DNA from: Clostridium sp. MB40-C1
GTDB lineage: Bacteria; Bacillota; Clostridia; Clostridiales; Clostridiaceae
Direction: 5' to 3'
DNA: 64,000 nt
Assembly: GCF_030913655.1 (NCBI RefSeq)
Contig: NZ_CP133189.1
Coordinates: 3,772,001-3,836,000, forward strand
The notes under the pieces were generated by a model that was given only the letters and a program-made list of their open reading frames with translations, was not told the DNA's origin and made no database searches. The translations under genes were made by a program, and so were the position numbers. The stretch's first letter is position 1; each line of letters opens with the position of its first letter. Shown here in pieces: positions 27,357-51,458 of this stretch.

Positions 27357-27941
27357 ATGATAAAATTTTTTAAAACAATAAAATATGATATTGATAATAT
27401 AGTTAAAAATGATCCGGCAGCAAGAAATGGGCTTGAAGTACTATTTTTATATCCTGTAGTTCATGCAATGATATTTTATAGGATAACGCATGCTTTATAC
27501 AAAAAGAATTTATTTTTCTTAGCTAGACTTCTCTCGCAATTTGCTAGATTCCTTACTGGAATAGAAATACATCCTGGTGCACAAATTGGCAAAGGTTTTT
27601 TTATAGATCATGGAATGGGTGTTGTTATAGGTGAAACAGCAGAGGTTGGTGACAATGTTACTTTGTATCATGGAGTAACTTTAGGTGGAACTGGTAAAGA
27701 TACAGGCAAGAGACATCCAACTGTAGGAAACAATGTAATAATAGGTTCAGGTGCTAAAATATTAGGACCTATTCTAATAGGAGATAATTCAAAAGTAGGT
27801 GCTAATTCTGTAGTTCTTAAAGACGTTCCAGAAAACTCAACAGTAGTAGGTATACCAGGGAAGGTAGTTAAAAAAAAATCTAATTTAGTAAATATGGAGA
27901 AATATGAAAAAACATTAAACTACAACAGTGTAAGCAGTTAA
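27357..27941 (+). CDS. cysE: serine O-acetyltransferase
   Basis: The 194-residue protein starts with a helical domain and continues with left-handed beta-helix hexapeptide repeats ([51 protein letters not shown]). It makes O-acetylserine from serine and acetyl-CoA, the first step of cysteine synthesis. The short Firmicutes form (EpsC/SAT type) fits the length. GGAGGG lies before ATG. A Cys-specific T-box controls it, as expected; no cysK follows within the window. Confidence 0.95.
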
Positions 27942-31387: not shown

Positions 31388-31567
31388 ATTAACTTAACAC
31401 CTCACAAAATTCATATAATAAAAGCAATAAATATTAATATTCTACATATTTCAAATAAAACCTTTTAATAGTATATAAAAAGATACTTAGGATTGTCTTA
31501 TATTTGTGTTAATGAAGCTCTACAAATGTTTTACTTGTAAAGTATATTTAATTAATCTATTTAAAGA

Positions 31568-31594
31568 ACATTTATTAAATTAAGGAATATAATA
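31568..31594 (+). promoter_or_regulatory. sigma-K-like promoter, AC-N16-AATAnnnTA (copy 1)
   Basis: AC (31568-31569), 16 bp, then AATATAATA (31586-31594). The layout matches sigma-K promoters (AC-N16/17-CATAnnnTA) with A for the first C and recurs before four other genes of the cluster. A short palindrome TATTAGGTATT/AATACCTAATA follows at 31595-31622. Confidence 0.6.
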
Positions 31595-31659
31595 TATTAG
31601 GTATTGATAAAAATACCTAATATTAAAAATCTAAATACTGTTAACGAGGAGGATACATT

Positions 31660-32115
31660 ATGGGAAAAAATAATGAGCAATATTATGAATGTGGGCAATG
31701 TGAAACTGATAATATAAATAAACAAGGGGAATTTGTACTTGGTAACGTAACAAAAGAAATAGAAGTAACAAAAGATATAGAGTTCAGCGAAATAAGAGCT
31801 GATATAAATGTAAAAAAAGTAAAGACATTAAGAGTATGGGGACAGGTCAAAGATTGTGATGGAAAGCCTGTAAAAAATGCTTTATTGAAATTAGTACGAG
31901 TGGTTAAGGATCAATGTGGAAAAGTAGAATATGTAGGAGTTGCTCATGGAGTAAGCGACTGCTTAGGTTTTTATCAATTTGATATTTGTGTTCCACACAG
32001 TTGTAACGCAAATGTATATAGGATTTTTGTAAGTAAGCAAGCTTTAGGAAAAGAAGGATATATTACAGCAACTGAATGTAATCCATGCTTAGATAATTTA
32101 GAGTGTGCAAAGTAA
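31660..32115 (+). CDS. Cys-rich carboxypeptidase-regulatory-like protein
   Basis: The 151-residue protein has a Cys-rich start (ECGQCETD), then a beta-sandwich of the carboxypeptidase-regulatory/CNA-B-like type (about 55-125; LRVWGQVKDCDGKPVKNALLKL, SDCLGFYQFDICVP), and a Cys-rich end. Ten Cys residues are seen in all. There is no signal peptide, which fits a protein made in the mother cell and laid on the spore. A similar protein is encoded at 49048. It opens a probable operon with the next gene (24 bp). Function unknown. AGGAGG lies before ATG. Confidence 0.7.
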   Translation: MGKNNEQYYECGQCETDNINKQGEFVLGNVTKEIEVTKDIEFSEIRADINVKKVKTLRVWGQVKDCDGKPVKNALLKLVRVVKDQCGKVEYVGVAHGVSDCLGFYQFDICVPHSCNANVYRIFVSKQALGKEGYITATECNPCLDNLECAK

Positions 32116-32139
32116 TCCCTTGTTAATTGGGGGGGAAAT

Positions 32140-32511
32140 ATGAAAAATAGTATGAAATATAAAATATATGATAGAATAATTGTTACAAATAATGTAGAGA
32201 AACGTGATTTGATCTTAGGTGATTTTTCGCCTAAGATTAAGTTGTGGAAATTTAAGGATAATGATGAACTAAGATTAGATTTTACTGTTAAAGCTGTACA
32301 ATTGCTACAAATTAAAGGTAATGGAAAACAAGATAAATGTATGAAAAACAAACCCATAAAATTATTTCAAGAATATATGGATAAAAAAGGGACTGTAAGA
32401 TTAAAAGAAATAGAAAGTTCAATGACTGAAGAAGATGGATCTTATAATTTTGATGTGTTGATACAGGAAAAGTATTTTCCTAAGTATTATACAGTATTAA
32501 TTAAAATTTAA
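32140..32511 (+). CDS. small beta-sandwich protein
   Basis: I do not recognise a named family. The 123-residue protein resembles its neighbour in layout: a VKAVQLLQIKGN strand, KNKPIKLFQEYMDKKGTVR loop and EEDGSYNFDVLIQ strand, in keeping with a carboxypeptidase-regulatory-like fold. It has two Cys positions at most and no signal peptide. It lies 24 bp downstream of the Cys-rich protein with GGGGGGG before ATG and is followed by a terminator, so the two form an operon. Confidence 0.6.
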   Translation: MKNSMKYKIYDRIIVTNNVEKRDLILGDFSPKIKLWKFKDNDELRLDFTVKAVQLLQIKGNGKQDKCMKNKPIKLFQEYMDKKGTVRLKEIESSMTEEDGSYNFDVLIQEKYFPKYYTVLIKI

Positions 32512-32537
32512 AAAATAGGTAATATTAAAATTTATTA

Positions 32538-32576
32538 TGACATACAATAAGTTTTTGCTTGTTGTATGTTTTTTGT
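32538..32576 (+). terminator. terminator of the two-gene operon
   Basis: ACATACAATAAG (32540-32551) pairs with CTTGTTGTATGT (32558-32569) and is followed by TTTTTT. A closely similar hairpin lies after the first giant gene at 38207. Confidence 0.85.
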
Positions 32577-32610
32577 TTATGAGTGAACCTTATGTATAAA
32601 TTTACTATGA

Positions 32611-32637
32611 ACACAAATAAACATTATAAATATTATA
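32611..32637 (+). promoter_or_regulatory. sigma-K-like promoter, AC-N16-AATATTATA (copy 2)
   Basis: AC (32611-32612), 16 bp, then AATATTATA (32629-32637). It lies 115 bp before the first giant gene, within a leader segment that is repeated before the second giant gene. Confidence 0.65.
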
Positions 32638-32751
32638 TATAGTAGGCTAGTAGTTTATTTAGGTCAATTAAGTATATTTATTTTAATAAAAATTGTAAAG
32701 TTATAAAGATTTATTTAGATGATGAAAAAATATTAGAATGGAGGAAATTTT

Positions 32752-35700
32752 ATGGCTGCAACAATTACAGGAACAGTCTTTGACGACTTAAATCATAATG
32801 GTGTATTAGATCCAGGTGAACCCGGGATACCTAATGCCTATGTTGTTTTAAGAGATCCTAATGGAGTATGTACTACAGTACAAACAAATGCATCTGGAGT
32901 ATATACCTTTACACCTATTAATTTAGCTGGTAGTTATAGTATTTATGAAACAGCAGTAGATCCAGGAGGTACTTGTCCACCAACAACTTTTGGACAACCG
33001 GCAGGATACACTAATTCAAGTACTTTTAGAACAGATACAGTTAATGTAACATCAACACAAATAATCAATAATGTAACAATAAATGCTGCAAATTTTGGTC
33101 ATGATAATCCAGACACTTTTTTTTGTGGACCTATTGCATATCAAGTTGCGGTAGAAGCAGGAGCTACCAATAGTGAATTTATAGAGATTAACTTAGTAAC
33201 AGGTACTGCAACTGTAGTTAATCCTGATATTGGAGTTAACATTAATGCAATTGGATATAATATTTTAGATGATATGATATATGGTATAGAAGATAATAGT
33301 ACAAATCTTGTAAGGGTGGCGCAAGATGGAACTACAACTAATTTCGGACCTATTACAGGATTACCATCACCATCACCAGGAAGGTATAATGTAGCTGATA
33401 TAGATGATCAAGGGAATATGTATTTATTTAGACAAAATCAGACAACAATATATGTAGTTGATGTGAATCAAGACTCACCAACCTTTGGTCAAGTAATAAA
33501 TACAGTACCATTATCATCAAGCGTTAATGTAGCTGATTGGGCCTATAGTGTAAGTGACGGTATGCTTTATGGTGTAGACGGCTCTACTGGTAATGTAGTA
33601 AGGGTTAATCCAGCAACAGGAGCTGTCACAGTATTAACAACAAATGGTATTCCTACTGGAAGCGCTTATGGAGCCACCTTCATGGATGCTGATGGTGTTT
33701 TGTATGCAATAAATAATAATACCGGAGTTGTTTATCGTATAACAATTTCAGGTAATAACGCTACAGGTGTGAATTTTTCCCAAAGTATACCAGCAGAGCT
33801 AAATGATGGGGCATTATGTGGCAATGCTAGAATTGAAGTAGATTATGGTGATGCTCCAGATCCAACAGCAGGAACTGGACCAGACGACTACAACACATTA
33901 TTTGCTAATAATGGACCTAGACATTTAATATTAAATCAATTAACTTTAGGAACTCAAGTAACAGGTGAACCAGATGCTTATGCAAATTTAACTACAGATG
34001 CTACAGGAGATGATATACCACAGGGAATACAAGATGATGGTGTTACTTTACCACTTACGCCCTTATTAGCAACAGACACCACTTACTCCTTAACAGTAGA
34101 TGTAGTAAATAACACAGGGTTACCAGCAAATGTATATGGATGGATAGATTTTAATAAGGATGGTGTATTCCAGGTAAATGAGGCTGCACCAGTTGTAGTA
34201 GTACCATCAGCCCCAGGAGTGCAACAAGTAGTATTAAACTTTACAGTACCTGCAGGGGTTATTTTAACACCAGATCATACCTTTGTAAGAGTTAGACTTA
34301 CAACAGATGAGTTAGTAAATCAAAATCCTTCACCAACAGATGAAGATACAAGAAGTATAGGACCAGCGTCAGATGGAGAAGTTGAGGACTATTATTTAGA
34401 AATAATTCCAGAAGCGGATGTATCAGTAGTAAAGACATCAAGCCCAGACCCAGTAGCAGCAGGAGAGTTGCTAACCTATACAATTACAGTAACCAATGCA
34501 GGACCATCAGATGCAGAAAATGTAAGCCTGCAAGATATAGTACCACCAGAAATGCTAAATGCTGAATTCTCAATAGATGGAGGATTAACCTTTAATCCAT
34601 GGGTAAGCCCTTATAATATAGGAAGCTTAGTATCAGGATCAAGTGTAACTATATTAATAAGAGGAATAGTAGACCCATCTTATACTGGAGGCAGTTTAAG
34701 TAATACAGCAACAGTAAGTAGTACAACACCAGATCCAGATCCAACAAACAATACTTCAACAGTAGTGACACAGGTAGAAACATCAGCAGATTTATCTATA
34801 ACTAAAACAGTAAATCCAGATCCAGTGGTAGCAGGAGAAGAGGCCACCTATACAATTACAGTAAACAATGCAGGACCATCTGATGCATTAAATGTAATAT
34901 TAACAGATGTAATACCAGCATGTATATTAAACCCAGAATTTTCACTAGATGGAGGAGTAACCTTTAATCCATGGGTGAGTCCTTATGTTATAGGTATAAT
35001 AGCGGCGGGAGCTACAGTTACTATATTAATAAGAGGAACAGTAGACCCATCATGTACCGGAACAATAACAAATACAGCAAGAGTAGATAGTACAACACCA
35101 GATCCAGATCCAACAAACAATGAAACAACAATAGTAACCCCAATAGATACTTCAGCAGATTTATCTATAACTAAAACAGTAAATCCATATCCAGTAGTAG
35201 CAGGAGAACAAGCAACCTATACAATTACAGTATCTAATGCGGGACCATCCGATGCACAAAATGTAACATTAACAGATGCAATCCCAGCATGTATATTAAA
35301 CCCAGAATTTTCAATAGATGGAGGAGTAACCTTTAATCCATGGGTAAATCCTTATGTTATAGGCACAATAGCAGCGGGAGCTACAGTTACTATATTAATA
35401 AGAGGAACAGTAGATCCAGCATGTATCGGAACAATAACAAATACAGCAAGAGTAGATAGTACAACACCAGATCCAGATCCAACAAACAATGAAACAACAA
35501 TAGTAACCCCAATAGATACTTCAGCAGATTTATCTATAACTAAAACAGTAAATCCAGATCCAGTAGTGGCAGGAGAAGAGGCAATCTATACAATTACAGC
35601 ATGTAACGCAGGACCATCAGATGCACAAAATGTAATATTAACAGATGTAGTGCCAGCATGTTTGTTAAATCCAGAGTATTCACTAGATGGAGGAGTAACC

Positions 35701-38184
35701 TGGGCAGCCTGGACAGGGTCAGTAAATCTAGGCACAATACCAGCAGGACAATGTGTAACAGTATTAATAAGAGGAATAGTAGATACATCATGCACAGGAA
35801 CAATAACAAATACAGCAAGAGTAGATAGCACAACACCAGATCCAGATCCAACAAATAATGAAACAACAATAGTAACCCCAATAGATACTTCAGCAGATTT
35901 ATCTATAACTAAAACAGTAAATCCAAATCCAGTAGTGGCAGGAGAAGAGGCAACCTATACAATTACAGTAACCAATGCAGGGCCATCAGATGCATTAGAT
36001 GTAACATTAACAGATGTAATACCAGCATGTATATTAAATCCAGAATTCTCAATAGATGGAGGAATAACTTGGAATCCATGGGTAAGTCCTTATAATATAG
36101 GAACAATAGTAGCAGGAGCTACAGTTACTATATTAATAAGGGGAACAGTAGAACCATCATGTATCGGAACAATAAGCAATACAGCAAGAGTAGATAGTAC
36201 AACACCAGATCCAGATCCAACAAATAATGAAACAACAATAGTAACCCCAATAGATACTTTAGCAGACCTATTTATATCTAAAATAGCTAACCCAGATCCA
36301 GTAGTGGCAGGAGAAGAGGCAACTTATACAATTACAGCATGTAACGCAGGACCATCAGATGCATTAAATGTAATATTAACAGATGCAGTGCCAGTATGTT
36401 TGTTAAATCCAGAGTATTCACTAGATGGAGGAGTAACCTGGGCTGCATGGACAGGATCAGTAAATTTAGGAACAATACCAGCAGGACAATGTGTAATAGT
36501 ATTAATAAGGGGAACAGTAGATCCATCATGCATGGGAACAATAACAAATACAGCAAGAGTAGATAGCACAACACCAGATCCAGATCCAACAAACAATGAA
36601 ACAACAATAGTAACCCCAATAGATACTTTAGCAGATGTATCTGTAGTTAAAACAGCTAATGCGGATAATTTTACTACAGGAGATGTTGTAACTTATACAA
36701 TAGCTGTGACAAATGCAGGACCATCAGATGCGCAAAATGTAATATTAACAGATGTAGTTCCACCACAAATTTTAAATCCAGAGTTTTCAATAGATGGAGG
36801 AGTAACCTTTAATCCATGGGTAAGTCCTTATAATATAGGAACAATAGCTGCAGGAACAACAGTTACTATTTTAATACGTGGAACTGTAAGTGAAACTGCT
36901 ATTGGAACAGTTAGAAATACAGCAAGTGTAAGTTCGGATACTGAAGATCCAGATCCAGCAAATAATGAATCAACAGTTGATGTGGAAGTTAAAGTAGCTA
37001 AATTAGAAGTAGTAAAATCCGCAGATAAAACTGCAGTAAAAGTAGGAGATAATTTAACCTATACAGTAACTATTAAAAATACTGGGAATACACCTGCTAA
37101 TGATGTAGTATTCAAAGATCAAATACCTGTAGGAACTAGTTTTGTACCAGGAAGTGTAACTATTAATGGAATGCCAGATGTAGGTGCAAATCCGGAGGTT
37201 GGATTTGATATTGGAACAATAAATTCAGGTGAAACTGTATTAGTAAGTTTTGCTGTTAAAGTTGAATATCGTCCAACACCACCACAGGTTGTGAATGTGG
37301 CAGTGGCTGATTATAACTTTATAGTTGACCCTACTAGACCACCGATTGAAAAATCAGATACAAGTAATGAAGTGATAACACAGGTGGAGATAGTTCAAGT
37401 TGATGTATTAAAATCAGCAGATAAGACCTTTGCAGTAATAGGAGATATAATAACCTATACTGTTATAATAACAAATTCTTCAACAATACCTGTAAATGAT
37501 GTGGTATTTACTGATTCAATACCAGATGGAACAAGTTTTGTGCCAGCTAGTGTAACAGTAAATGATAACCCAGTATCAGGAGATCCAAGTACAGGCATTA
37601 ATTTAGGAACTCTTGATCCAGGTGAATCAGTAAAAGTAAGTTTTAAGGTTAAGGTTGAATTTGTACCATGTCCACCAAGAATAATAAACAAAGCTTTTGT
37701 AAGCTTTAAATATGCACTTGGAGATAATATTATAGAAGAAACTGTAGAAAGTAATAGTTCAATAATAGATGTAGGACCAACAAGCTTTAAACAATTAAGC
37801 AGAGAAGAATATGTTAAGATTCCATGTCAAAAACCAGATGCAGAAGAAATTTTAAATACAGTAGTGGATATTGAAATAACAAATACAAGGGTGATAAAAA
37901 CTCCTATAATAACATCTTTAGAAGGACAAAATTTAACAGGCTTTAAATTGATAGTTGAAGGAGTACTAAATCAAAAGGTTGAATATATAGCTTGTGATGA
38001 GAAGCAGTCAGTACACGCAGCACACTTTAGAGTACCGTTTAGCACATTTATAATATTACCAGAAAGTTATGTAGAGGGTACTAATATAGAGATAGAAGCT
38101 GTAGTAGAGGATATTTACAGTAAACTTGTAAATAAGAGAACTGTATTTAAGAATATAACATTTATGATACTTGCAAAATTTTAA
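32752..38184 (+). CDS. giant SdrD-B / propeller / GEVED / DUF11x9 / SPOCS protein (paralogue A)
   Basis: The 1,810-residue protein has, in order, an SdrD-B-like Ca-binding domain (about 1-105; TVFDDLNHNGVLDPGEPG), a DUF6923-like beta-propeller (about 125-360), a GEVED-type region (about 362-552; YGDAPDP ... GEVEDYYL), seven DUF11 repeats of 123 residues (about 554-1415), two divergent DUF11 repeats (about 1416-1680) and a C-terminal SPOCS/DUF3794 domain (about 1685-1810). There is no signal peptide or LPxTG sorting motif. I infer spore-surface attachment through SPOCS. Start ATG after GGAGG; the upstream element is sigma-K-like. It has an almost equal paralogue downstream. Confidence 0.88.
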   Translation: MAATITGTVFDDLNHNGVLDPGEPGIPNAYVVLRDPNGVCTTVQTNASGVYTFTPINLAGSYSIYETAVDPGGTCPPTTFGQPAGYTNSSTFRTDTVNVTSTQIINNVTINAANFGHDNPDTFFCGPIAYQVAVEAGATNSEFIEINLVTGTATVVNPDIGVNINAIGYNILDDMIYGIEDNSTNLVRVAQDGTTTNFGPITGLPSPSPGRYNVADIDDQGNMYLFRQNQTTIYVVDVNQDSPTFGQVINTVPLSSSVNVADWAYSVSDGMLYGVDGSTGNVVRVNPATGAVTVLTTNGIPTGSAYGATFMDADGVLYAINNNTGVVYRITISGNNATGVNFSQSIPAELNDGALCGNARIEVDYGDAPDPTAGTGPDDYNTLFANNGPRHLILNQLTLGTQVTGEPDAYANLTTDATGDDIPQGIQDDGVTLPLTPLLATDTTYSLTVDVVNNTGLPANVYGWIDFNKDGVFQVNEAAPVVVVPSAPGVQQVVLNFTVPAGVILTPDHTFVRVRLTTDELVNQNPSPTDEDTRSIGPASDGEVEDYYLEIIPEADVSVVKTSSPDPVAAGELLTYTITVTNAGPSDAENVSLQDIVPPEMLNAEFSIDGGLTFNPWVSPYNIGSLVSGSSVTILIRGIVDPSYTGGSLSNTATVSSTTPDPDPTNNTSTVVTQVETSADLSITKTVNPDPVVAGEEATYTITVNNAGPSDALNVILTDVIPACILNPEFSLDGGVTFNPWVSPYVIGIIAAGATVTILIRGTVDPSCTGTITNTARVDSTTPDPDPTNNETTIVTPIDTSADLSITKTVNPYPVVAGEQATYTITVSNAGPSDAQNVTLTDAIPACILNPEFSIDGGVTFNPWVNPYVIGTIAAGATVTILIRGTVDPACIGTITNTARVDSTTPDPDPTNNETTIVTPIDTSADLSITKTVNPDPVVAGEEAIYTITACNAGPSDAQNVILTDVVPACLLNPEYSLDGGVTWAAWTGSVNLGTIPAGQCVTVLIRGIVDTSCTGTITNTARVDSTTPDPDPTNNETTIVTPIDTSADLSITKTVNPNPVVAGEEATYTITVTNAGPSDALDVTLTDVIPACILNPEFSIDGGITWNPWVSPYNIGTIVAGATVTILIRGTVEPSCIGTISNTARVDSTTPDPDPTNNETTIVTPIDTLADLFISKIANPDPVVAGEEATYTITACNAGPSDALNVILTDAVPVCLLNPEYSLDGGVTWAAWTGSVNLGTIPAGQCVIVLIRGTVDPSCMGTITNTARVDSTTPDPDPTNNETTIVTPIDTLADVSVVKTANADNFTTGDVVTYTIAVTNAGPSDAQNVILTDVVPPQILNPEFSIDGGVTFNPWVSPYNIGTIAAGTTVTILIRGTVSETAIGTVRNTASVSSDTEDPDPANNESTVDVEVKVAKLEVVKSADKTAVKVGDNLTYTVTIKNTGNTPANDVVFKDQIPVGTSFVPGSVTINGMPDVGANPEVGFDIGTINSGETVLVSFAVKVEYRPTPPQVVNVAVADYNFIVDPTRPPIEKSDTSNEVITQVEIVQVDVLKSADKTFAVIGDIITYTVIITNSSTIPVNDVVFTDSIPDGTSFVPASVTVNDNPVSGDPSTGINLGTLDPGESVKVSFKVKVEFVPCPPRIINKAFVSFKYALGDNIIEETVESNSSIIDVGPTSFKQLSREEYVKIPCQKPDAEEILNTVVDIEITNTRVIKTPIITSLEGQNLTGFKLIVEGVLNQKVEYIACDEKQSVHAAHFRVPFSTFIILPESYVEGTNIEIEAVVEDIYSKLVNKRTVFKNITFMILAKF
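34411..36996 (+). repeat. tandem 369-bp DUF11 units in paralogue A
   Basis: Unit starts at 34783, 35152, 35521, 35890, 36259 and 36628 are exactly 369 bp apart (123 codons); the first unit, from 34411, is 372 bp. Units are strongly alike at DNA level and mix two versions, marked by NPWVSPY and WAAWTGSV. The open frames seen on the other strand within this region are by-products of the repeats. Confidence 0.92.
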
Positions 38185-38206
38185 TTATAAAATAAATTGA
38201 ACTTAT

Positions 38207-38250
38207 AAAGACATACAATAAAATTTTTATTTAATTGTATGTCTTTTGTT
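38207..38250 (+). terminator. terminator after paralogue A
   Basis: AAAGACATACAAT (38207-38219) pairs perfectly with ATTGTATGTCTTT (38234-38246), then T residues. It resembles the hairpin at 32540. Confidence 0.85.
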
Positions 38251-38287
38251 TATGTTTAAAAATCAAACTTATACAACTTAACTAGGC

Positions 38288-38314
38288 ACATAAATAAGCA
38301 TTATAAATATTATA
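38288..38314 (+). promoter_or_regulatory. sigma-K-like promoter, AC-N16-AATATTATA (copy 3)
   Basis: AC (38288-38289), 16 bp, AATATTATA (38306-38314), in a segment homologous to 32611-32660. It lies 222 bp before paralogue B. The extra ~105 bp between (about 38345-38500) is A/T-rich with no gene. Confidence 0.65.
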
Positions 38315-38536
38315 TATAGTAGGTAAGGAATTTATTTAGTTAAATTTAAAATTAATAACTAATAAGTAAATAAAACACCAAAATTTTGATACAAAAATTT
38401 ATATTTGAGGTATATGTATAAAGAAAATAAATACTAAAATCATATATTTTACTAATAAATTGGAAATGAAAAGATTTTAAATTAGTTATAAAAATTTCAT
38501 TTAAATGATGAAAAATATTAGAATGGAGGAAATTTT

Positions 38537-43954: not shown

Positions 43955-43994
43955 TTGTAAAATAGATAAACTGTACTGTTAAAGGAATAATTAA

Positions 43995-44035
43995 AAAAGC
44001 TTCAACTAGTTTTTTAGATCTAGTTGAGGCTTTTA
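43995..44035 (+). terminator. terminator after paralogue B
   Basis: AAAAGCTTCAACTAG (43995-44009) pairs with CTAGTTGAGGCTTTT (44020-44034), with one G-T pair. Confidence 0.82.
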
Positions 44036-44117
44036 TAAGAAATCTAATTAGTTTAATATTCACATTAATAAAAATGGTATAAAGAAAAGAATTATATAAA
44101 AATAAATTTTTATGTAA

Positions 44118-44144
44118 ACATTCATAAATAATATGAATATTATA
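44118..44144 (+). promoter_or_regulatory. sigma-K-like promoter, AC-N16-AATATTATA (copy 4)
   Basis: AC (44118-44119), 16 bp, AATATTATA (44136-44144), 58 bp before the ATG of the first small SPOCS gene. Confidence 0.65.
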
Positions 44145-44201
44145 AATTAGAGTCATATGTATTATAGTAAAATATTTGAATTTTATAGGGGGTATAATTT
44201 T

Positions 44202-44678
44202 ATGGCCAGTGTAATGAGAAATTTCATTGAGATAGAAGGAATAAATTCAAATTGTATACCAGAAAATGTGTCAGCATTTAAACAATTTAATATAGAAGAA
44301 ACTGCATGTTTACCAATTACAAAACCAGATATAGAACAAATTTTAAAAGTAATTGCAGATGTAGAAATTAAAAGCACAAGGGCAATAAGAACTCCAGTAG
44401 GAACCTCTCTTGAAGGTCAAGTTTTGACTGGTTGGAAGCTTGTAATAGAGGGAAAGGTAAATCAAAAGGTTCAATATGTAGCCGATCTTCCAGAACAACC
44501 ATCTCATGCTGCACATTTTAGTGTGCCTTTTAGTACTTTTGTGGTATTGCCAGAGGATTTTGTTATGGGTACACCGGTAACTGTAACACCATTTTTAGAA
44601 GATATATATGTAGAACAATTAGATAAAAGGTGTATATTTAAAAATATAACTTTATTATTAGCAGTTGAATTTTGTTAA
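44202..44678 (+). CDS. single-domain SPOCS (DUF3794) protein
   Basis: The 158-residue protein starts with MASVMRNFIEIEGI and is then a single SPOCS domain (about 25-155; FKQFNIEETACLPITKPDIEQILKV, GQVLTGWKLVIEGKVNQKVQYV, HAAHFSVPFSTFVVLP, KRCIFKNITLLL). The domain is known from SipL of Clostridioides difficile, which connects to SpoIVA in coat assembly. It probably links spore-surface proteins. I start at ATG 44202 after TAGGGGG; the upstream ATG 44157 lies within the promoter leader. The next two genes are close, so these three may be one operon. Confidence 0.85.
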   Translation: MASVMRNFIEIEGINSNCIPENVSAFKQFNIEETACLPITKPDIEQILKVIADVEIKSTRAIRTPVGTSLEGQVLTGWKLVIEGKVNQKVQYVADLPEQPSHAAHFSVPFSTFVVLPEDFVMGTPVTVTPFLEDIYVEQLDKRCIFKNITLLLAVEFC

Positions 44679-44699
44679 GAATAAGAAAGGGTGATATAT

Positions 44700-45203
44700 A
44701 TGGCAAAAATAATGAGAAATTTAGTTGAATATATAGGTATTGCTGATACTTTACCAACGAGCCCTAAATATTTTAAGGAATTAACAGTGCAGGAAAAGTT
44801 AGTAATACCAATGCAAAAACCAGATATAGAGCAATTGTTAGGAGTTATGGTAGAAGCAGAGGTGATTTCAACTAGAGTAGTAGAAACAGAAAAAGGAATA
44901 TCCGATGAAGGGCAAAAGCTTTCAGGATGTAAGCTTATAATAGAGCTTAAACTTCATGAAAAAGTTAAATATGTGGCAGATGAGCCAACACAATCAGTTC
45001 ATGTAGCAGAGTATGAATCACAATATAAGAGTGTATTTATAGTTGTACCTTGTGAAATAGATGGAACAGATGTATGTGAACTTGTTAGAAGAAATAAAAT
45101 GAGTGTTAATGTATATATAGAAGATATATATGCTGAAATGATAGATTGTAGAAATATATTTAAAAATGTAACAATCTTTGTTGATGCTGTATTTAGAAAA
45201 TAA
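44700..45203 (+). CDS. single-domain SPOCS (DUF3794) protein
   Basis: The 167-residue protein resembles the preceding gene (MAKIMRNLVEYIGI, FKELTVQEKLVIPMQKPDIEQLLGV, GQKLSGCKLIIELKLHEKVKYV, IFKNVTIFV) and has one SPOCS domain with a slightly longer middle (CELVRRNKMSVNV). Start ATG 44700, six bases after AAAGGGTG; the GTG 44691 is inside that site. It lies 21 bp after the previous stop and 58 bp before the DUF11-SPOCS gene, which suggests cotranscription. No signal peptide. Confidence 0.85.
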   Translation: MAKIMRNLVEYIGIADTLPTSPKYFKELTVQEKLVIPMQKPDIEQLLGVMVEAEVISTRVVETEKGISDEGQKLSGCKLIIELKLHEKVKYVADEPTQSVHVAEYESQYKSVFIVVPCEIDGTDVCELVRRNKMSVNVYIEDIYAEMIDCRNIFKNVTIFVDAVFRK

Positions 45204-45261
45204 AGATAGATATTTATGAGTTAAAAAATCAAGTTATATTTTAAAGAAAGGAAGTGTATAT

Positions 45262-46449
45262 ATGGCAGTAGTATTAACCAAAACTGCAGATAAAGTTAAT
45301 GTTTTGCCAGGGGATATAGTAACCTATCAAGTTACGATAAATAATACAGATGACACTTTTAGCGAAACAAATATAACATTTACAGATATAATACCAAAAG
45401 GAACTACTTTTATCAAAGACAGTTTTTTTTTAGAAGATAAGTTACAACTAGGGAAAGATCCTAATGTAGGAGTGCCTATTCCTGATATACCTCCATTGGC
45501 AACAACAAAAGTTAAATATGATGTATTAGTTGATGAAAAAACTACTTCAGTACAATTAGTAAATATTGCTCAAGCAACTTCAATATTAAGTGGAACAATG
45601 ATACCTATAACCTATGAAAGTAATCCATTTAATATAAATATAGCAGCGATAGATTTATTAAAATCTGCAGATAAATATAATATAGCTGTTACGGAAGAAA
45701 TAACTTATAGTATTATTATTAATAATATTGGAGCAGTTGAACTTAAAAACCCTATATTAAAAGATTTAGTTCCAGAATGTCTTTCTTTTGTTGATGGGAG
45801 TTTTAGCATAAATGGTATTTTAGATACAAATGCCAACCCTAATAATGGAATTAATCTTGAAAATATATTACCAGGACAAATTTTAAATATAAATTTTAGA
45901 GCAACTGTAATTTGTACACCATGTTTACTAAAGTTTGTTAATACTGCTGCATTAAGTTATGAAATAGAAACAGTACAAAATGGACTAATTGAGACAAATA
46001 CAATAACTACAAATAAAGTAATAACTACAGTTTCCCCATCTGCATTCAAACAATTAAGTAGAGAAGAATATATAAAAATTCCATGTCAAAAGCCAGATAT
46101 GGAAGAAATTTTAAATACTCTTGTTAATATTGAAATAACAGATACAAAAGTTATAAAAACTCCTGTAATAAAATCATTAGAAGGACAAAAACTAACAGGA
46201 TTTAAACTAATAGTTGAAGGGGTATTAAATCAAAAGGTTGAGTATGTAGCTTGTGATAAAGAGCAGTCAGTACATGCAGCACACTCTAGAGTTCCATTTA
46301 GTAGTTTTATTGTACTTCCTAAAAATTATGTAGAAGGTACTTCTATTAAGGTAGAAGGAGTAGTAGAAGATATTTATACTAAGCTTGTAAATAAGAGAAC
46401 TATATTTAAAAATATAACTTTTATAATAAGGGCAACATATGAGTTGTAG
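45262..46449 (+). CDS. two DUF11 domains plus SPOCS domain
   Basis: The 395-residue protein is a short version of the giant proteins: DUF11 domains at about 1-130 (VVLTKTADKVNVLPGDIVTY) and 130-255 (AIDLLKSADKYNIAVTEEITY), of the divergent type seen as units 8-9 in A and B, and a SPOCS domain at about 265-393 that is almost the same as theirs (FKQLSREEYIKIPCQKPD). The N-terminal SdrD-B, propeller, GEVED and 123-residue units are absent. It may serve as a minimal anchor or cap. GGAAGTG lies before ATG. A terminator follows at 46469. Confidence 0.86.
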   Translation: MAVVLTKTADKVNVLPGDIVTYQVTINNTDDTFSETNITFTDIIPKGTTFIKDSFFLEDKLQLGKDPNVGVPIPDIPPLATTKVKYDVLVDEKTTSVQLVNIAQATSILSGTMIPITYESNPFNINIAAIDLLKSADKYNIAVTEEITYSIIINNIGAVELKNPILKDLVPECLSFVDGSFSINGILDTNANPNNGINLENILPGQILNINFRATVICTPCLLKFVNTAALSYEIETVQNGLIETNTITTNKVITTVSPSAFKQLSREEYIKIPCQKPDMEEILNTLVNIEITDTKVIKTPVIKSLEGQKLTGFKLIVEGVLNQKVEYVACDKEQSVHAAHSRVPFSSFIVLPKNYVEGTSIKVEGVVEDIYTKLVNKRTIFKNITFIIRATYEL

Positions 46450-46468
46450 GATAAATTATATAGATTAT

Positions 46469-46507
46469 GAACTCCAATTGGAAATTAACTCTGATTGGAG
46501 TTTTTTT
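46469..46507 (+). terminator. terminator after DUF11-SPOCS gene
   Basis: AACTCCAAT (46470-46478) pairs with ATTGGAGTT (46494-46502), followed by TTTTT. Confidence 0.82.
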
Positions 46508-46660
46508 GTAAATATATTTATACCATTTAAAATGAAAAAGTATGGTTGTTAAATAGTTTAAACAGCTATTTGAAATTAATATTACTTTTTTATGGTAAAT
46601 ATGAATATATATAGTGTATAAGAAAAAATATATAGTTTTATATGGTGGGGAGGGTATAGA

Positions 46661-48619
46661 GTGAAAAACAATTATAAAGAATTTGTAGAAATTATAAATG
46701 ACTCCAGTAAATTTTGGAATAATCCTAAGGCATTTAAGCAATTTTGTATACAAGATACATTTGATCTACCTTTAAATAAAATGAATATTGAAAAAATACT
46801 AAATGTAGTAGTAGATGTTGAAATAATAGATAAATTTATAATTGACACAATAATAGGGATGTCTATAGAAGGGCAACGTCTTAGTGGAAAAAAAATTATA
46901 GTTAATGGAAAAATAAGATATAGGGTAGAGTATGAAACTACAGAGGAAAGCCAAGTTATTAATACAATAGAGTTTGAAAAAAATTTTTCTAATCATGTAA
47001 TGATAGAAAATCAAAAGTGTGACATATTACAAATAAAGGTGATAGCTAATGCTGAGTATGCACTAGTAAAACAAATTAACGAAAGGAAAATACTACATAA
47101 TGCTGTAATATTGTTGAATGTAATTGATAGAATTTATGATTTGAATGATAATTATAATAAGATAAATTTAGCAAAAAATATTGATGATTTAATTGCAGTT
47201 AAAGATAAGGCGAACTATACTAAACATGATTTTTTTAAAAATTGTAGTATAGGAGAACAGTTACAAATTGATTGTAAGAAGCCGCTAGTTAAAAATGTGC
47301 TTTCAACAATTAATGAATCAGAAGTTATTTATTTTAAAATAATTGATACTATAGTAGGTAAATCATATGAAAGTCAATTTTTATCTGGTAAAGCATTTGT
47401 TGCAATTATTAAAATAAGGCAAAAAATACTTTATGAAGCAGATAATAATGAAAAATCTGTACATGTTATAGAAAATCAATTATATAAATGTGTCCACGTG
47501 GTTATTCCAGAATTAATAGAGGGAACAGATCCTAAAAAATTGGTTAAAAATAAATTATTACGATATAATGCAGAAATAGAATATGTATCAGTAATAAATT
47601 CAAGTAATTATATATTTATAAATATATTTCTTAAAGTTACTATAAACACAATACCTACTTATGAAATATGCTGTTGTGAATGTAAAAATGATGATTCAAG
47701 TAAAATGTATATAATGTATGATGATGGTAGCTATAGTATTGAAATGGCTAAATATGATAATGCTAAGATAATAAAACCAACTTGGTCTCCGAATGGAAAT
47801 TATATAGCATTTCTTTTAAGACAACATAATATGTGTAGATTTTATGTAATAAATTTTAGAGAATTGATGACTGAGAAAATTTTAAATTCACCTAATTTTA
47901 ATAATATTAATGAGTATTGTTGGATAAAAGGAACAAATAAAGTAGTAATATCATCAACTTTGAATAACAAAAAAGATTTATACTTAATAGATTTAAATAC
48001 TTTAAAATACAAACAATTAACTTTTGGAGATGGACTTAGTATGAGTTTAAGCCCAAAAAGTTTATCTGAAAATAATATATTATTTTTAAAATCAACTTCT
48101 AATATATCTGATATATGGAGCATAGATATTGAAGGACAAAATACAAAAAAGATTACTAAATGTGGATATATAAAAGAATTTAATTGTTCACAGGATGGTA
48201 AAGAGATTACCTATGTATTTGGTAAAGGGGGAAATGTAGATTATATATATATTATAGATGTTAGTACAGGTAAAGCAAAGTTAATAATAGATAGAGAAGA
48301 TATTATTAGAAAAAAAAAGATTAAAATTTCTCCTAATGGTAGATACATTAGTTTTATAGGAAAGAAAAATGATATATTAAATATATATGTATTTGATAGA
48401 AATACTGAAATTATTAAATGTATTACTTGTTATTATAGTAGGTATATTAAAATATGTGATTATACTTGGAAGATAGATTCTAGAAAAATATACTATACAT
48501 CTAATGAATTAGGATATTATAATGTATATTCTATAGATTTACAAACAAATAATAAAGAACAATTAACTAATAGTACAGCTTTAAATAGTTATATTTACTA
48601 TAGGCCAAAAATAGATTAG
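46661..48619 (+). CDS. double SPOCS domain fused to TolB-like beta-propeller
   Basis: The 652-residue protein has two SPOCS domains (about 20-155 and 185-330) and a C-terminal PD40/TolB-like propeller (about 345-650) with repeated blades such as PTWSPNGNYIAFLL, DLYLIDLNTLKYKQLT, DIWSIDIEGQNTKKIT and NVYSIDLQTNNKEQLT. The second SPOCS domain has Cys in place of usual residues. SPOCS would bind the spore surface; the propeller could bind another protein. Start GTG at 46661 after GGGGAGGG. A possible promoter (AC-N18-AATATATATA) is weaker than the others. A terminator follows at 48734. Confidence 0.83.
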   Translation: MKNNYKEFVEIINDSSKFWNNPKAFKQFCIQDTFDLPLNKMNIEKILNVVVDVEIIDKFIIDTIIGMSIEGQRLSGKKIIVNGKIRYRVEYETTEESQVINTIEFEKNFSNHVMIENQKCDILQIKVIANAEYALVKQINERKILHNAVILLNVIDRIYDLNDNYNKINLAKNIDDLIAVKDKANYTKHDFFKNCSIGEQLQIDCKKPLVKNVLSTINESEVIYFKIIDTIVGKSYESQFLSGKAFVAIIKIRQKILYEADNNEKSVHVIENQLYKCVHVVIPELIEGTDPKKLVKNKLLRYNAEIEYVSVINSSNYIFINIFLKVTINTIPTYEICCCECKNDDSSKMYIMYDDGSYSIEMAKYDNAKIIKPTWSPNGNYIAFLLRQHNMCRFYVINFRELMTEKILNSPNFNNINEYCWIKGTNKVVISSTLNNKKDLYLIDLNTLKYKQLTFGDGLSMSLSPKSLSENNILFLKSTSNISDIWSIDIEGQNTKKITKCGYIKEFNCSQDGKEITYVFGKGGNVDYIYIIDVSTGKAKLIIDREDIIRKKKIKISPNGRYISFIGKKNDILNIYVFDRNTEIIKCITCYYSRYIKICDYTWKIDSRKIYYTSNELGYYNVYSIDLQTNNKEQLTNSTALNSYIYYRPKID

Positions 48620-48733
48620 AAATCATTAAAATAATTCTAGACATTGTTATAAAAATTATCAATTTTTTAAAATAACGTGGAAATTGCATAAGTAAAAATT
48701 CAAATATGTAATGAAATTTTTTCAATAATAATA

Positions 48734-48775
48734 AAAAGCAGTTAATGAACAATTTAAATTGTATTAACTGCTTTT
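48734..48775. terminator. terminator between SPOCS-propeller gene and minus-strand genes
   Basis: AAAAGCAGTTAAT (48734-48746) pairs with ATTAACTGCTTTT (48763-48775), with further pairing in the loop. A/T-runs on both sides allow use in both directions. Confidence 0.82.
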
Positions 48776-48830
48776 AAAGTTAGAGCTTTCCCATATTATA
48801 AAGAAAGTCCCATTTAATTAGTGTATAGTA

Positions 48831-48920
48831 TTAATTGTTTACTATTAAAATAAACATGGTTCTTGGCTTTAGGTGGAGTTTTACTCTATGTGAAAGTTTA
48901 TTAACAGAATTCTTAGGCAT
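48831..48920 (-). CDS. candidate 29-residue small protein
   Basis: On the minus strand ATG 48920 follows AAGGAG by five bases and opens a frame of 29 codons ending at 48831. The product has a basic N-terminus and a short hydrophobic end (MFILIVNN). It lies after the 49048 gene on the same strand and before the 48734 terminator, so it could be the second gene of that unit. No family recognised. The remaining 48620-49047 sequence holds only the hairpins listed here. Confidence 0.3.
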   Translation of the reverse strand: MPKNSVNKLSHRVKLHLKPRTMFILIVNN

Positions 48921-48972
48921 TTTACTCCTTAGAAGTTGTTATTCTTTAGGAGAAACTGTTATTCATGGTAGT

Positions 48973-49020
48973 ACCATTCTAATACTCCTACTTTAAAGAA
49001 GATAGAAGTATTAGAATGGT
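48973..49020. terminator. hairpin between 49048 gene and small ORF
   Basis: ACCATTCTAATACT (48973-48986) pairs perfectly with AGTATTAGAATGGT (49007-49020), with a 20-base loop. There is no clear T-run on the minus side, so it may be an RNA-stability or attenuator structure. Confidence 0.5.
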
Positions 49021-49047
49021 TAGAAATCGGATAAAATTGATTGACTC

Positions 49048-49431
49048 CTATTCAGTTATACAGCTATCATTATTTATTTGACTATGATGAAGACAATCGG
49101 TATCGCATGGATCAGGTTTTATGACTATAGGTTTAATTTTAACGCAATCATACCATATTTTTATTAAATAATGTGTATCGGCGCAAAGAGGACCAAAAAG
49201 AAATTGCCCACATTCATCAGTAAATGTATGTGTTAATGGTTTAGCTGAACAAGGATTGCATGGATTTACAAGTTCAAATAATTTAACTACAGCATCTTTA
49301 ACAACATTATCGTTATGATCTTTTACTATACCATGTATAACACTTCTTTTTTCTTCAGGAACTTTAACCGTAACTTCTAGTTGCTCATTTTCTTTTGGAC
49401 AAATATCAAATTTTACTAATCGTGCACCCAT
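49048..49431 (-). CDS. Cys-rich carboxypeptidase-regulatory-like protein
   Basis: The 127-residue protein is related to the 31660 product: a beta-sandwich of the carboxypeptidase-regulatory type (about 25-105; SVIHGIVKDHNDNVVKDAVVKL, FTDECGQFLFGPLCADTHYLIK) with nine Cys residues, several in paired motifs (NPCNPC, DPCDTDC). No signal peptide is seen, consistent with assembly onto the spore from the mother cell. It is the only cluster gene on the minus strand together with the small frame after it. GGAGG lies before ATG. Function unknown. Confidence 0.68.
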   Translation of the reverse strand: MGARLVKFDICPKENEQLEVTVKVPEEKRSVIHGIVKDHNDNVVKDAVVKLFELVNPCNPCSAKPLTHTFTDECGQFLFGPLCADTHYLIKIWYDCVKIKPIVIKPDPCDTDCLHHSQINNDSCITE

Positions 49432-49579
49432 AAAAACCTCCTATAAAAATAAAATTTTATTAGCTATCAATTAAATTTATGCAATATAGGATTAAATTAG
49501 TATTTAATATAGAAAATTACAAAAAATATACACAATACTTTATTTATATTAGAATGAAGTAAAAAAATAATATAAAATT

Positions 49580-49606
49580 ACAAATATTATTTTTGAAAAT
49601 ATTATA
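49580..49606 (+). promoter_or_regulatory. sigma-K-like promoter, AC-N16-AATATTATA (copy 5)
   Basis: AC (49580-49581), 16 bp, AATATTATA (49598-49606), 71 bp before the ATG of the 49678 gene. Confidence 0.62.
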
Positions 49607-49677
49607 TGAATAAATAAATGATAAGGTTAATAAATATATTATTGATGTAGCTTAATAAAAAGGAGAAATATTATTAT

Positions 49678-50262
49678 ATGGGTATTATTAGGAATCATAT
49701 AGATGTAGTTGGTATAACTCCAGAAGATCAACTTCCTAAAAAAATACAAAATGGACAGGTTATTGAATATTCAGAAGTGGAAAATATATTTATTCCTAGA
49801 AGCAACTCTAATATTAAGAGTATATATCAAATAGTATTAGACGTAAAAGTAACAGCAAAAAGAAATGTAAATATTCCTATAGGTAACATAGTTATAATTG
49901 ATGGATTTAAAAAAATAAAAATAATTTATTGTGATAAAGGTCGATATCAAAAAGCTAATGTATTAGATTTAAAATTACCATATAATACTTTTGTTGAGAT
50001 GCCGGAGGGCAAGGAGGTAGGAAGTGTATATATAAAGATAATAGATGCTTATTTTGACTTGATTGAGGGAAGAAAGTTGTATAGCCATATTGTATATTTG
50101 GTAGAGGTCAACTATAAAACAGATAGTTTTATAGAAGATAATTATGAAAAAGAAAAATTAAATGAAGATATTATAAAGGAAGTAGGAATATGTGATGAAA
50201 GGATCAATAACAATCAAGATAAATTTAAACCTTTAGTTAATATAGATGCTGAATTTTTATGA
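49678..50262 (+). CDS. SPOCS-like protein with acidic tail
   Basis: The 194-residue protein starts with MGIIRNHIDVVGI, as in the single-domain SPOCS genes, and keeps the SPOCS pattern in weaker form (about 30-150; VENIFIPRSNSNIKSIYQIVLDVKV, LKLPYNTFVEMPEG, GRKLYSHIVYLVEVNY). A charged 45-residue tail follows. AAGGAG lies before ATG. The glycosyltransferase gene starts 9 bp after its stop, so the two are almost surely cotranscribed. Confidence 0.78.
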   Translation: MGIIRNHIDVVGITPEDQLPKKIQNGQVIEYSEVENIFIPRSNSNIKSIYQIVLDVKVTAKRNVNIPIGNIVIIDGFKKIKIIYCDKGRYQKANVLDLKLPYNTFVEMPEGKEVGSVYIKIIDAYFDLIEGRKLYSHIVYLVEVNYKTDSFIEDNYEKEKLNEDIIKEVGICDERINNNQDKFKPLVNIDAEFL

Positions 50263-50271
50263 GGTGATTTT

Positions 50272-51408
50272 ATGAAGGTGTGTATCGATGGAATAGGTCT
50301 AAATATGCTTCAAGGAACGAGCCTATGTTCATATACTTATGAATTCCTAAAAAATTTAACAAAGATATATCCAGAATTGAAGTATAATCTTATTTGGGAT
50401 AATGATAAAGAAGAGAAGAAATACCTGGAAGATAAGTTAATCTATTTAAATTTAAATAGATTAACTAATGATTACAGTATATTAGAAAATTATATAGAAG
50501 AAAATGACATAAATATATTTCATTCTATAAACAATGGATTTAGTATCCCTTATAATAAAAAATGTAAATATGTTAGTACAATATATGATTTACTTCCTAT
50601 TTTTAATATGAGTTATACAGATAAATTGTATTATGAGAAATTTATGAATTCAATGCCTATAGCTATAGAAAATTCTGATAAAATCATTGCTGTTTCAAAA
50701 TTTATAAAAGATCAGATTATTGAATATTTTCATGTGGATAATAAAAAAATTGAAGTAATATATCCTGGATGTTCTAATTATTTTAGAAGTATAGATAGTA
50801 ACATAACTAAAGAATTTATTAAAAAGAACTATAATATATATGGAGAATTTTTACTTTATGTAGGCAGTATACATCCAAGAAAAAATTTACATGTACTATT
50901 AAAAGTTTTTAAAAGTATAAAGTATTATAATGCAACTAAAAATACGAAATTGGTAATAATAGGGAACTATAAAGGAAAAGCATATGAATATTATCTAAAG
51001 CTAAAATCATTAGCACGTTTTTTAAAAATACAAGATGATGTTATTTTTACAGGATCAATAGATTATCAAGATACTCTTTATTTTTATAATTCTAGTGAAT
51101 GTTTAATAAATTTATCTTTATATGAAGGATTTCCTTTATCAGTTATAGAGGCTATGGCCTGTGGAACTCCTGTTATATGTAGTAATAATAAGATATTTAA
51201 TGAAATTATAGGTGATTATGCTATATTAGTAGATGTAGATGATGAAGTTTATATAAAAGAAAACATATTAGAATGTTTAATAAATCATAATTATAAAAAG
51301 AAACTTTGTAAAAAGGGGATAAAAAAAAGTCTAGAATATAAATGGGAAAACAATGTTTTTAAAATGCATGGTGTTTATGAATCATTAATGGACCCACATA
51401 TTAAATGA
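50272..51408 (+). CDS. GT4-type glycosyltransferase
   Basis: The 378-residue cytosolic protein has the GT-B layout of family GT4: an N-terminal domain (about 1-170) and a nucleotide-sugar domain with LYVGSIHPRKNLHVLL (about residue 195), VIFTGSIDYQDTLYFYNSSECLINLSLYEGFPLSVIEAMACGTPVICS-type sequence (about 255-305; the EGFPLSVIEAMACG signature), and a C-terminal helix. It should transfer a sugar from an activated nucleotide. Its close coupling to a SPOCS gene under a sigma-K-like promoter suggests glycosylation of spore-surface protein; this is an inference. AGGTGATT lies before ATG, and the previous stop is 9 bp away. Confidence 0.88.
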   Translation: MKVCIDGIGLNMLQGTSLCSYTYEFLKNLTKIYPELKYNLIWDNDKEEKKYLEDKLIYLNLNRLTNDYSILENYIEENDINIFHSINNGFSIPYNKKCKYVSTIYDLLPIFNMSYTDKLYYEKFMNSMPIAIENSDKIIAVSKFIKDQIIEYFHVDNKKIEVIYPGCSNYFRSIDSNITKEFIKKNYNIYGEFLLYVGSIHPRKNLHVLLKVFKSIKYYNATKNTKLVIIGNYKGKAYEYYLKLKSLARFLKIQDDVIFTGSIDYQDTLYFYNSSECLINLSLYEGFPLSVIEAMACGTPVICSNNKIFNEIIGDYAILVDVDDEVYIKENILECLINHNYKKKLCKKGIKKSLEYKWENNVFKMHGVYESLMDPHIK

Positions 51409-51410
51409 AT

Positions 51411-51458
51411 AAAAACTTGTGGTATTTGTTTAAAAAAGCATTTACTACAAGTTTTTAT
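51411..51458 (+). terminator. terminator after glycosyltransferase gene
   Basis: AAAAACTTGTGGTA (51411-51424) pairs with TACTACAAGTTTTT (51443-51456) with one mismatch, at the end of the cluster. Confidence 0.82.

Follow-up and report, generated by a model that had tools for sequence, protein, structure and literature searches.

A candidate spore-surface fiber cassette in Clostridium sp. MB40-C1 related to the appendage gene cluster of Clostridium taeniosporum

Introduction

Within a 64,000-nt stretch of the genome of Clostridium sp. MB40-C1 (hereafter the window, whose positions supply all coordinates below), a block of eleven genes at 31660-51408 brings together SPOCS domains, DUF11 repeat proteins, small Cys-rich proteins and a glycosyltransferase, and we think it probable that these genes form a self-contained cassette for proteinaceous spore-surface fibers. 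Judged from sequence, the block appears to be a variant relative of the appendage gene cluster of Clostridium taeniosporum, to which it is joined by a bridging genome, G118. By way of G118, the HYPO2 and HYPO3 proteins of that cluster and the C-termini of its CRD proteins are recognized here as SPOCS, the domain of SipL, SpoVID and CotE, which supplies a concrete and removable candidate for an anchor. In the literature covered, no explanation was found of how clostridial spore appendages are fastened, and no SPOCS-DUF11 spore cassette was found in the literature searched, from which most subscription journals fell away.

Composition of the gene block

Gene names were assigned in this analysis, and all genes lie on the forward strand except cprC. 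The block opens with cprA (31660-32115; 151 amino acids (aa), 10 Cys, 16.9 kDa), which is carboxypeptidase-regulatory-like, and its paralogue cprB (32140-32511; 123 aa, 1 Cys). Two tandem relatives with an identical order of domains follow, giant1 (32752-38184; 1810 aa) and giant2 (38537-43954; 1805 aa), in which SdrD_B, DUF6923 and GEVED domains precede nine DUF11 domains and a C-terminal SPOCS domain (residues 1659-1810 and 1654-1805, respectively), as assigned by Pfam and by a profile of five SPOCS domains from the cluster itself. Next come spA (44157-44678; 173 aa, from Pfam) and spB (44691-45203; 170 aa, from the cluster profile), each with a single SPOCS domain; dspC (45262-46449; 395 aa), with two DUF11 domains and a C-terminal SPOCS domain by Pfam; and spProp (46661-48619; 652 aa), in which family scans and the cluster profile place two SPOCS domains and a TolB/DPPIV-like beta-propeller. 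The block is completed by cprC (49048-49431, reverse strand; 127 aa, 9 Cys), placed in a second cpr subfamily by family scan and phmmer; spD (49678-50262; 194 aa), with a weak SPOCS domain; and gt (50272-51408; 378 aa), a GT4-family glycosyltransferase by Pfam whose start lies 9 bases past spD. The spD-gt pair recurs in genomes G115, G074 and G072. None of the eleven proteins has a hydrophobic N-terminal segment or an LPXTG motif, as judged by a simple hydropathy scan and a pattern search rather than by a trained signal-peptide predictor.

SPOCS/SipL matches (PF12673) clear the 23.6-bit cut-off in protein scans of giant1 (43.1 bits), giant2 (45.5), spA (48.2) and dspC (46.4), and fall slightly short in spB (22.0), the N-terminal part of spProp (21.9) and spD (22.2; E=1.7e-4). 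The N-terminal spProp domain passes at 24.2 bits in a whole-genome search, and the second spProp domain, absent from the Pfam listing, is found at E=1.6e-17 by the five-domain cluster profile. That profile gives seven matches in six block proteins, with spD added when it is used locally. Both giants and the small DUF11 protein dspC are SPOCS proteins too, each carrying the domain at its C-terminus. The SipL-type gene of this genome is a separate 554-aa gene 1.1 Mb away with three SPOCS matches. Across the family Clostridiaceae, PF12673 matches occur in 136 of 146 genomes and number exactly three, as in SipL, in 99 of those 136 by hand count; extra SPOCS genes are therefore the exception. When a structural model of the SPOCS domain (mean predicted local distance difference test, pLDDT, of 82) was compared with solved structures by Foldseek, no relative emerged at E<=0.001, the best hit having E 0.02 and a template modeling score of 0.16, and sequence searches of solved structures returned nothing for SPOCS at E<=1 or for dspC at E<=0.1. 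As a separate observation, G002, G095 and G096 have five or six SipL-family matches and are not among the 27 genomes matched by the cassette profile (see below); they may hold accessory SPOCS genes of other kinds.

The nine, nine and two DUF11 domains of giant1, giant2 and dspC account for all 20 matches in the 3.89-Mb genome at E<=0.001. A Lys, an Asp and an Asn are retained in all 14 aligned copies from the giants, and among 314 DUF11 domains from the loci of other genomes Lys occupies 94% of the 279 filled positions, Asp 88% of 314 and Asn 88% of 298 in the columns that we assigned as corresponding. Together with a weak, sub-cut-off match of dspC to the isopeptide-domain model TIGR04226 (E 6e-5), this conservation fits domains that would be covalently locked. 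A modest model of a DUF11 pair (pLDDT 74, predicted template modeling score 0.48) matches immunoglobulin-like (Ig-like) sandwiches, those of integrins and collagen adhesins among them, which probably tells little past the fold.

The cpr proteins are poorly described by Pfam (cprA at E 0.16, cprC at 0.007, cprB only as SdrD_B at 0.22). They form one family, in that cprA matches both cprB (about 1e-10; phmmer 2e-10) and cprC (6e-5); against solved structures, cprA has weak S-layer matches only (E 0.01). Of 206 genomes, 69 have matches to the cpr family, and because 54 of these lie outside the 27 cassette genomes, the cassette cannot be diagnosed from a cpr gene by itself. In other genomes these proteins range from 133 to 205 aa and from 4 to 20 Cys. 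The genome G110 has 17 weak cpr-like matches, many within open frames of 1500-2200 aa, which reads as a large expansion of cpr-related domains in one genome.

Much of this anatomy had been anticipated by an earlier note made from the sequence alone. It set limits of about 20 kb, and the genes end 92 and 50 bases inside them; its two giant DUF11 proteins and one small one are confirmed by Pfam, its glycosyltransferase is GT4-like, and its tally of eight SPOCS domains in seven genes was correct, with four of the eight weak and four over the Pfam cut-off. Its three carboxypeptidase-regulatory-like proteins, two of them Cys-rich (cprA and cprC), hold together as a family by their mutual matches, and the lack of signal peptides and sorting motifs that it had remarked agrees with the hydropathy scan and the LPXTG pattern.

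Relationship to the C. taeniosporum appendage cluster

The 9.6-kb cluster of C. taeniosporum comprises CRD1, HYPO1, HYPO2, HYPO3, CRD2, P29a, GP85, P29b and CL2 (PMC5749712). The 2018 genome paper that describes it raises the possibility that no other known clostridium has the appendage genes and assigns no known function to the CRD and HYPO proteins, and the terms SipL and DUF3794 are absent from its main text (PMC5749712). The earlier note had pointed, with reserve, to a link between DUF11 and these appendages; it is in print, as DUF11 is present in four of the nine cluster proteins (PMC5749712), which in G118 correspond to the CRD1, CRD2, P29a and P29b counterparts.

Two genomes, G118 and G018, served as stand-ins for the C. 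taeniosporum cluster. G118 carries nine genes in the published order and at nearly the published lengths: 556, 161, 166 (158 from an internal Met), 160, 413, 269, 289, 268 and 486 aa, where the published values include CRD1 at 564, HYPO2 at 158, HYPO3 at 160, CRD2 at 413 and both P29a and P29b at 269 aa (PMC5749712). Identities among its members also track those in print: 34% over 136 aa between HYPO2 and HYPO3 (published, 34% over 140), 34% over 395 between CRD1 and CRD2 (36.6% over 399), 29% over 228 between P29a and CRD2 (about 29% over 258), and 25% over 228 between P29a and CRD1 (about 22% over 225). Pfam finds SPOCS in the CRD2 and HYPO2 counterparts of G118, with HYPO3 under the cut-off and CRD1 seen by the cluster profile only; it finds DUF11 in the CRD1, CRD2 and both P29 counterparts, and Collagen with BclA_C in the GP85 counterpart. 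G018 carries the run HYPO1-HYPO2-HYPO3-CRD2-P29a-GP85-P29b.

Set against G118, the window pairs cprA with HYPO1 (47% identity over 137 aa), spA with HYPO2 (52% over 155), spB with HYPO3 (54% over 147) and dspC with CRD2 (35% over 387). The consecutive genes spA-spB-dspC thus repeat the order HYPO2-HYPO3-CRD2, each pairing being the best-scoring one by way of G118, and the two giants likewise score best with the CRD2 counterpart (38% over 388 aa). These CRD-class giants and the HYPO1-like cprA lie upstream of spA-spB-dspC, in an order that differs from that of the C. taeniosporum cluster. A tree of 101 SPOCS domains, from which domains shorter than 115 aa or with E >1e-12 were dropped and spD was left out, joins the giants and dspC to the CRD1 and CRD2 counterparts (the CRD class, 20 rows, support 91/86), spB to the HYPO3 counterpart (25 rows, 83/99) and spA to the HYPO2 counterpart (18 rows, 91/67), all of these classes being below the 95/80 mark of the tool and the bootstrap being unsettled. 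This homology supports the earlier note, which had placed the genes in a system of the coat, the exosporium or an appendage.

Distribution and association with fiber genes

At E<=1e-8, the cluster SPOCS profile has matches in 27 of the 206 Clostridiaceae genomes, that of the window included; two of the 27, G118 and G018, also have P29- and GP85-like genes. In fetched stretches, we detected fiber genes by our own DUF11 profile and by a GXY pattern that runs for 30 residues or more. With the genomes of the window and of Clostridium brassicae set aside, DUF11 or collagen-like genes are fused to or beside SPOCS genes in 22 of 25 family genomes, some of which contributed several stretches to the comparison, and the count may favor DUF11-linked loci in that the search profile takes three of its five rows from DUF11 protein tails. 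As a control, DUF11, GXY or cpr genes were found in none of 20 SipL stretches of 19 kb. Other genomes supply 31 proteins of these loci in which SPOCS is joined to DUF11 or lies in a chain of more than 1000 aa; in 29 of them no more than 25 aa separate the domain from the C-terminus, the exceptions being a 306-aa protein in G115 and a 2450-aa protein in G110. These two findings, the C-terminal position and the company of fiber genes within the family, lend support to the earlier picture of DUF11 fibers tethered by SPOCS domains, in which the tether itself is putative.

A broader profile matched 16 of 391 genomes of the class at E<=1e-10, divided into two of the family, five accessory clusters and nine SipL genes, the last assigned by frame length. 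At the level of the phylum, 23 of 398 genomes matched at E<=1e-15. Ten of these were inspected: DUF11 occurs in four (G699, G692, G738, G888) and a SPOCS-ending protein of 773-2217 aa in six (the same four, G691 and G655). The start of the G692 giant is almost like that of the window giants.

Several related loci depart from the arrangement in the window. In four (L047, L048, L049 and L051, from G074, G125, G126 and G110), Cys-rich double-SPOCS proteins of 354-416 aa with 12-30 Cys adjoin another SPOCS protein. Three of the genomes (G074, G125 and G126) add a collagen-like gene, and three (G074, G125 and G110) a divergent SPOCS protein, likewise Cys-rich and about 200 aa long. This set appears to be a second type of cassette. 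In seven others (L112-L118, from G137, G127, G077, G140, G012, G120 and G061), SPOCS-less DUF11 giants of 1268-2701 aa share a conserved neighborhood, adjoining a 161-165 aa SPOCS protein and a 301-308 aa DUF11 protein (SPOCS found in five of the seven); collagen-like genes occur in three of the seven neighborhoods. Here SPOCS would be a separate adaptor and not a fused tail. Three of the five accessory SPOCS clusters outside the family (L102-L106, from G553, G456, G355, G493 and G521) contain cpr genes.

A swap site and a recent exchange of the block

We compared the interval between nth and a HAD gene in eight genomes of the genus. It holds DUF11 giants in G000 and G092, a different arrangement with a 2250-aa giant in G115, and a collagen-like protein with SPOCS proteins in G074; no SPOCS gene was found there in G002, G122, G047 or G105.

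A scan of named genomes with dspC gave Clostridium brassicae as the sole match. Aligned to C. brassicae ZC22-4 in 250-base windows, positions 31400-51900 are 96-100% identical in DNA, a value that may be slightly high inside the giants because it is there the best collinear match. Over the 2 kb that end at 31.25 kb, of which 250 bases did not align, identity is 84-92%; it climbs near 31.4 kb, and to the right of the block, in 52.0-56.25 kb, it stands at 86-94%. Farther left it is 88-97%, except at 27.0-28.0 and 28.75-29.0 kb, where it reaches 99-100%. Fourfold-site divergence is 47 of 2550 sites in the eleven cluster genes versus 109 of 576 in seven flanking genes. The simplest reading of these alignments would be that the whole block of about 20 kb was recently exchanged through recombination in its flanks, and such an exchange independently marks the functional limits of the block.

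Within the same comparison, giant1 of the window is about 88% identical in DNA to giant2 of C. brassicae, and fourfold-site changes between the species are 1 of 949 in giant1 and 35 of 918 in giant2. The two giants (32699-43964) look like a tandem duplication that includes their upstream regions.

Proposed mechanism and alternative readings

On our reading, the mother cell would synthesize the cassette proteins late in sporulation, without signal peptides, and deposit them on the forespore. The giants would be chains of Ig-like domains, in which the Lys-Asp-Asn triad may form internal isopeptide bonds, and they and the shorter dspC would point their N-terminal parts outward. The C-terminal SPOCS domain of these fiber proteins may plug into a layer of spA and spB, with spProp and spD, that would itself dock on the coat organized by SipL and SpoIVA; this SPOCS-SPOCS docking on a basal layer is suggested by the C-terminal SPOCS domains of the fiber proteins and their single-SPOCS neighbors. 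The Cys-rich cprA and cprC might crosslink the base and gt might glycosylate the Thr/Ser-rich domains of the fibers. These two steps, like the adaptor and scaffold roles, are guesses from domain type.

A number of points weigh against a fiber cassette of this descent. C. taeniosporum is reached by way of G118 and published values rather than from its deposited sequence, and G118 departs from print in that its P29a and P29b are 48% identical (87% published) and the first residues of its GP85 and CL2 are not identical. The position of cprA, which precedes the giants whereas HYPO1 follows CRD1, is also discordant, and the CRD class of the SPOCS tree does not take in the giants of G115 and G072, as judged by their SPOCS tails. 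The window genome has no P29a or P29b counterpart, since DUF11, which does detect the P29-like proteins of G118, occurs genome-wide only in three cluster genes, and no GP85 or CL2 counterpart, with no match to collagen PF01391 at E<=0.1. Yet P29a, P29b and GP85 are the biochemically proven appendage proteins, whereas the presence of CRD and HYPO proteins in appendages is not demonstrated in the text covered of the published account, which only suggests minor or assembly roles for them (PMC5749712). Nor is the association with fiber genes uniform. Apart from a possible leaning of the search profile, three of the 25 family genomes lack such genes (G110, G064 and G203, the last a 4.2-kb contig), as do the fetched stretches of all five non-family Clostridia (DUF11 or collagen-like; the G553 contig measures 6.5 kb) and of six of the ten inspected genomes of the phylum.

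The upstream regions bring no further help. Promoter-like sites of the form HACA-N15-AATATWATA precede cprA (31567-31594), giant1 (32610-32637), giant2 (38287-38314), spA (44117-44144) and spD (49579-49606) on the forward strand; these are the five matches found, all upstream of cluster genes, and the pattern was drawn from those same sites. On the reverse strand, a perfect match to the published sigma-K consensus lies upstream of cprC (49600-49628; equaled in 0.5% of shuffles). In other genomes, the self-derived pattern precedes none of 181 cluster-type genes; relaxed sigma-K sites precede 11 of 181 such genes and 11 of 296 neighbors (p=0.26), above shuffles, and the published consensus 6 of 181 and 7 of 296. 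Because the pattern is self-derived and there is no significant excess over neighbors elsewhere, promoters are not used as support.

The strongest alternative, which we nevertheless regard as unlikely, is that the proteins do not protrude as fibers but serve as structural parts of the coat or of the basal layer of an exosporium, the DUF11 giants lying flat as a matrix. The described SPOCS proteins SipL, SpoVID and CotE are indeed coat morphogenetic proteins, cprA and cprC are rich in Cys, accessory SPOCS clusters without DUF11 or collagen-like genes occur outside the family, and no CsxA-type open reading frame (about 300 aa, 25 Cys) was found in the 17-18 kb around either U32 peptidase gene, so that another shell might be needed. 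Against such a shell, relatives have these SPOCS proteins in combination with P29-like and with collagen/BclA_C proteins, kinds that the available literature reports in ribbons and hairy naps; the replacement of DUF11 giants by a collagen-like protein at one site suits surface fibers better than a conserved shell; and cassette SPOCS genes are missing from that site in four of eight genomes of the genus, and 179 of the 206 genomes of the family give no match to the profile.

That the block encodes true ribbon appendages like those of C. taeniosporum is highly improbable: the spA, spB and dspC genes in HYPO2-HYPO3-CRD2 order and the cprA/HYPO1-type gene would favor it, but P29, GP85 and CL2 are missing from the genome, for which reason the block was not filed as a ribbon-appendage cluster. 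No more likely is a vegetative cell-surface or S-layer-like adhesin system that happens to use SPOCS domains. DUF11, SdrD_B and GEVED are found in secreted cell-surface proteins of many bacteria, and the block does hold a glycosyltransferase; against this stand the homology to a spore-appendage cluster, the eleven proteins without a hydrophobic N-terminus (by hydropathy only) or LPXTG motif, and the description of SPOCS for sporulation proteins only in the literature covered. The slimmest prospect is that cprA is the exosporium protein CsxB and the block a csx-type exosporium locus, for although C. sporogenes CsxB has 151 aa, 10 Cys and 16.6 kDa (PMC4942563), a close fit to cprA, the agreement is limited to size and Cys count, might be chance given the spread of cpr sizes and Cys counts elsewhere, and comes from an article whose main text contains none of the terms DUF11, DUF and DUF3794.

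Returning to the fiber cassette, a more general and more tentative idea is possible, namely that the C-terminal SPOCS domain is a general plug that fastens interchangeable fibers (DUF11 giants, P29/collagen ribbons, collagen-like naps) and that whole cassettes pass from one species to the next, each able to take the place of another at one and the same chromosomal site. We lowered our estimate of it because accessory SPOCS clusters outside the family mostly come without recognizable fiber genes. If true, the type of spore surface evolves by the swapping of cassettes. The nth-HAD interval offers a natural experiment in which one site in one genus carries different types of fiber. Relatives of the SPOCS genes of a cluster whose appendage genes were deemed possibly unique (PMC5749712) are, at any rate, present in 27 of 206 Clostridiaceae.

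Other features of the window

Before the block, the stretch 26907-27941 holds a T-box leader (Rfam RF00230, E 1.9e-23) and, downstream of it, a 194-aa open reading frame (27357-27941) that, judged by eye, looks like a serine acetyltransferase. The interval 27.0-28.0 kb is 99.6-100% identical to C. brassicae although the DNA around it is mostly at 88-97%, perhaps through a second small exchange or strong constraint.

Comparison with known systems

SPOCS takes its name from SpoVID, CotE and SipL; the SPOCS domain of SpoVID binds CotE and SafA (PMC10867305), and SipL acts with SpoIVA in C. difficile (PMC6436350). The cassette shares the domain with SipL, but in C. difficile SipL carries a LysM domain in addition to its three DUF3794/SPOCS domains, whereas the cassette proteins have one or two SPOCS domains, three of them are fused to DUF11, Pfam scans of the cluster proteins list no LysM, and the SipL-type gene sits elsewhere in the genome. 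The F-ENA fibers offer another parallel, in that F-Anchor-3 of Clostridium aceticum has DUF11 and a predicted spore-docking domain; that system, however, is based on DUF4183 and is predicted to dock through a CsxA-like domain (PMC11952670), and no DUF4183 is listed among the 19 window proteins scanned with Pfam. With the CsxA/CsxB/BclA exosporium of C. sporogenes the block has in common small Cys-rich proteins, cprA matching CsxB in length and number of Cys, and csxA, whose place is between zapA and a U32 peptidase gene, adjoins collagen-like and glycosyltransferase genes (PMC4942563, PMC7333573). The window genome differs in having no collagen match and no CsxA-like frame near its U32 peptidase genes, and neither DUF11 nor DUF3794 appears in the main texts of those two articles.

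The nearest relative is the C. taeniosporum cluster itself. Where that cluster has CRD1, the window has giant1 and giant2 in tandem, each about 1800 aa long and furnished with additional head domains; it adds cprB, spProp, cprC, spD and gt, and is without P29, GP85 and CL2. Shared between the two are counterparts of HYPO1, HYPO2, HYPO3 and CRD2, giants of the CRD class, the consecutive order HYPO2-HYPO3-CRD2, and an architecture in which DUF11 repeats are followed by a C-terminal domain common to the HYPO proteins, recognized through G118 as SPOCS.

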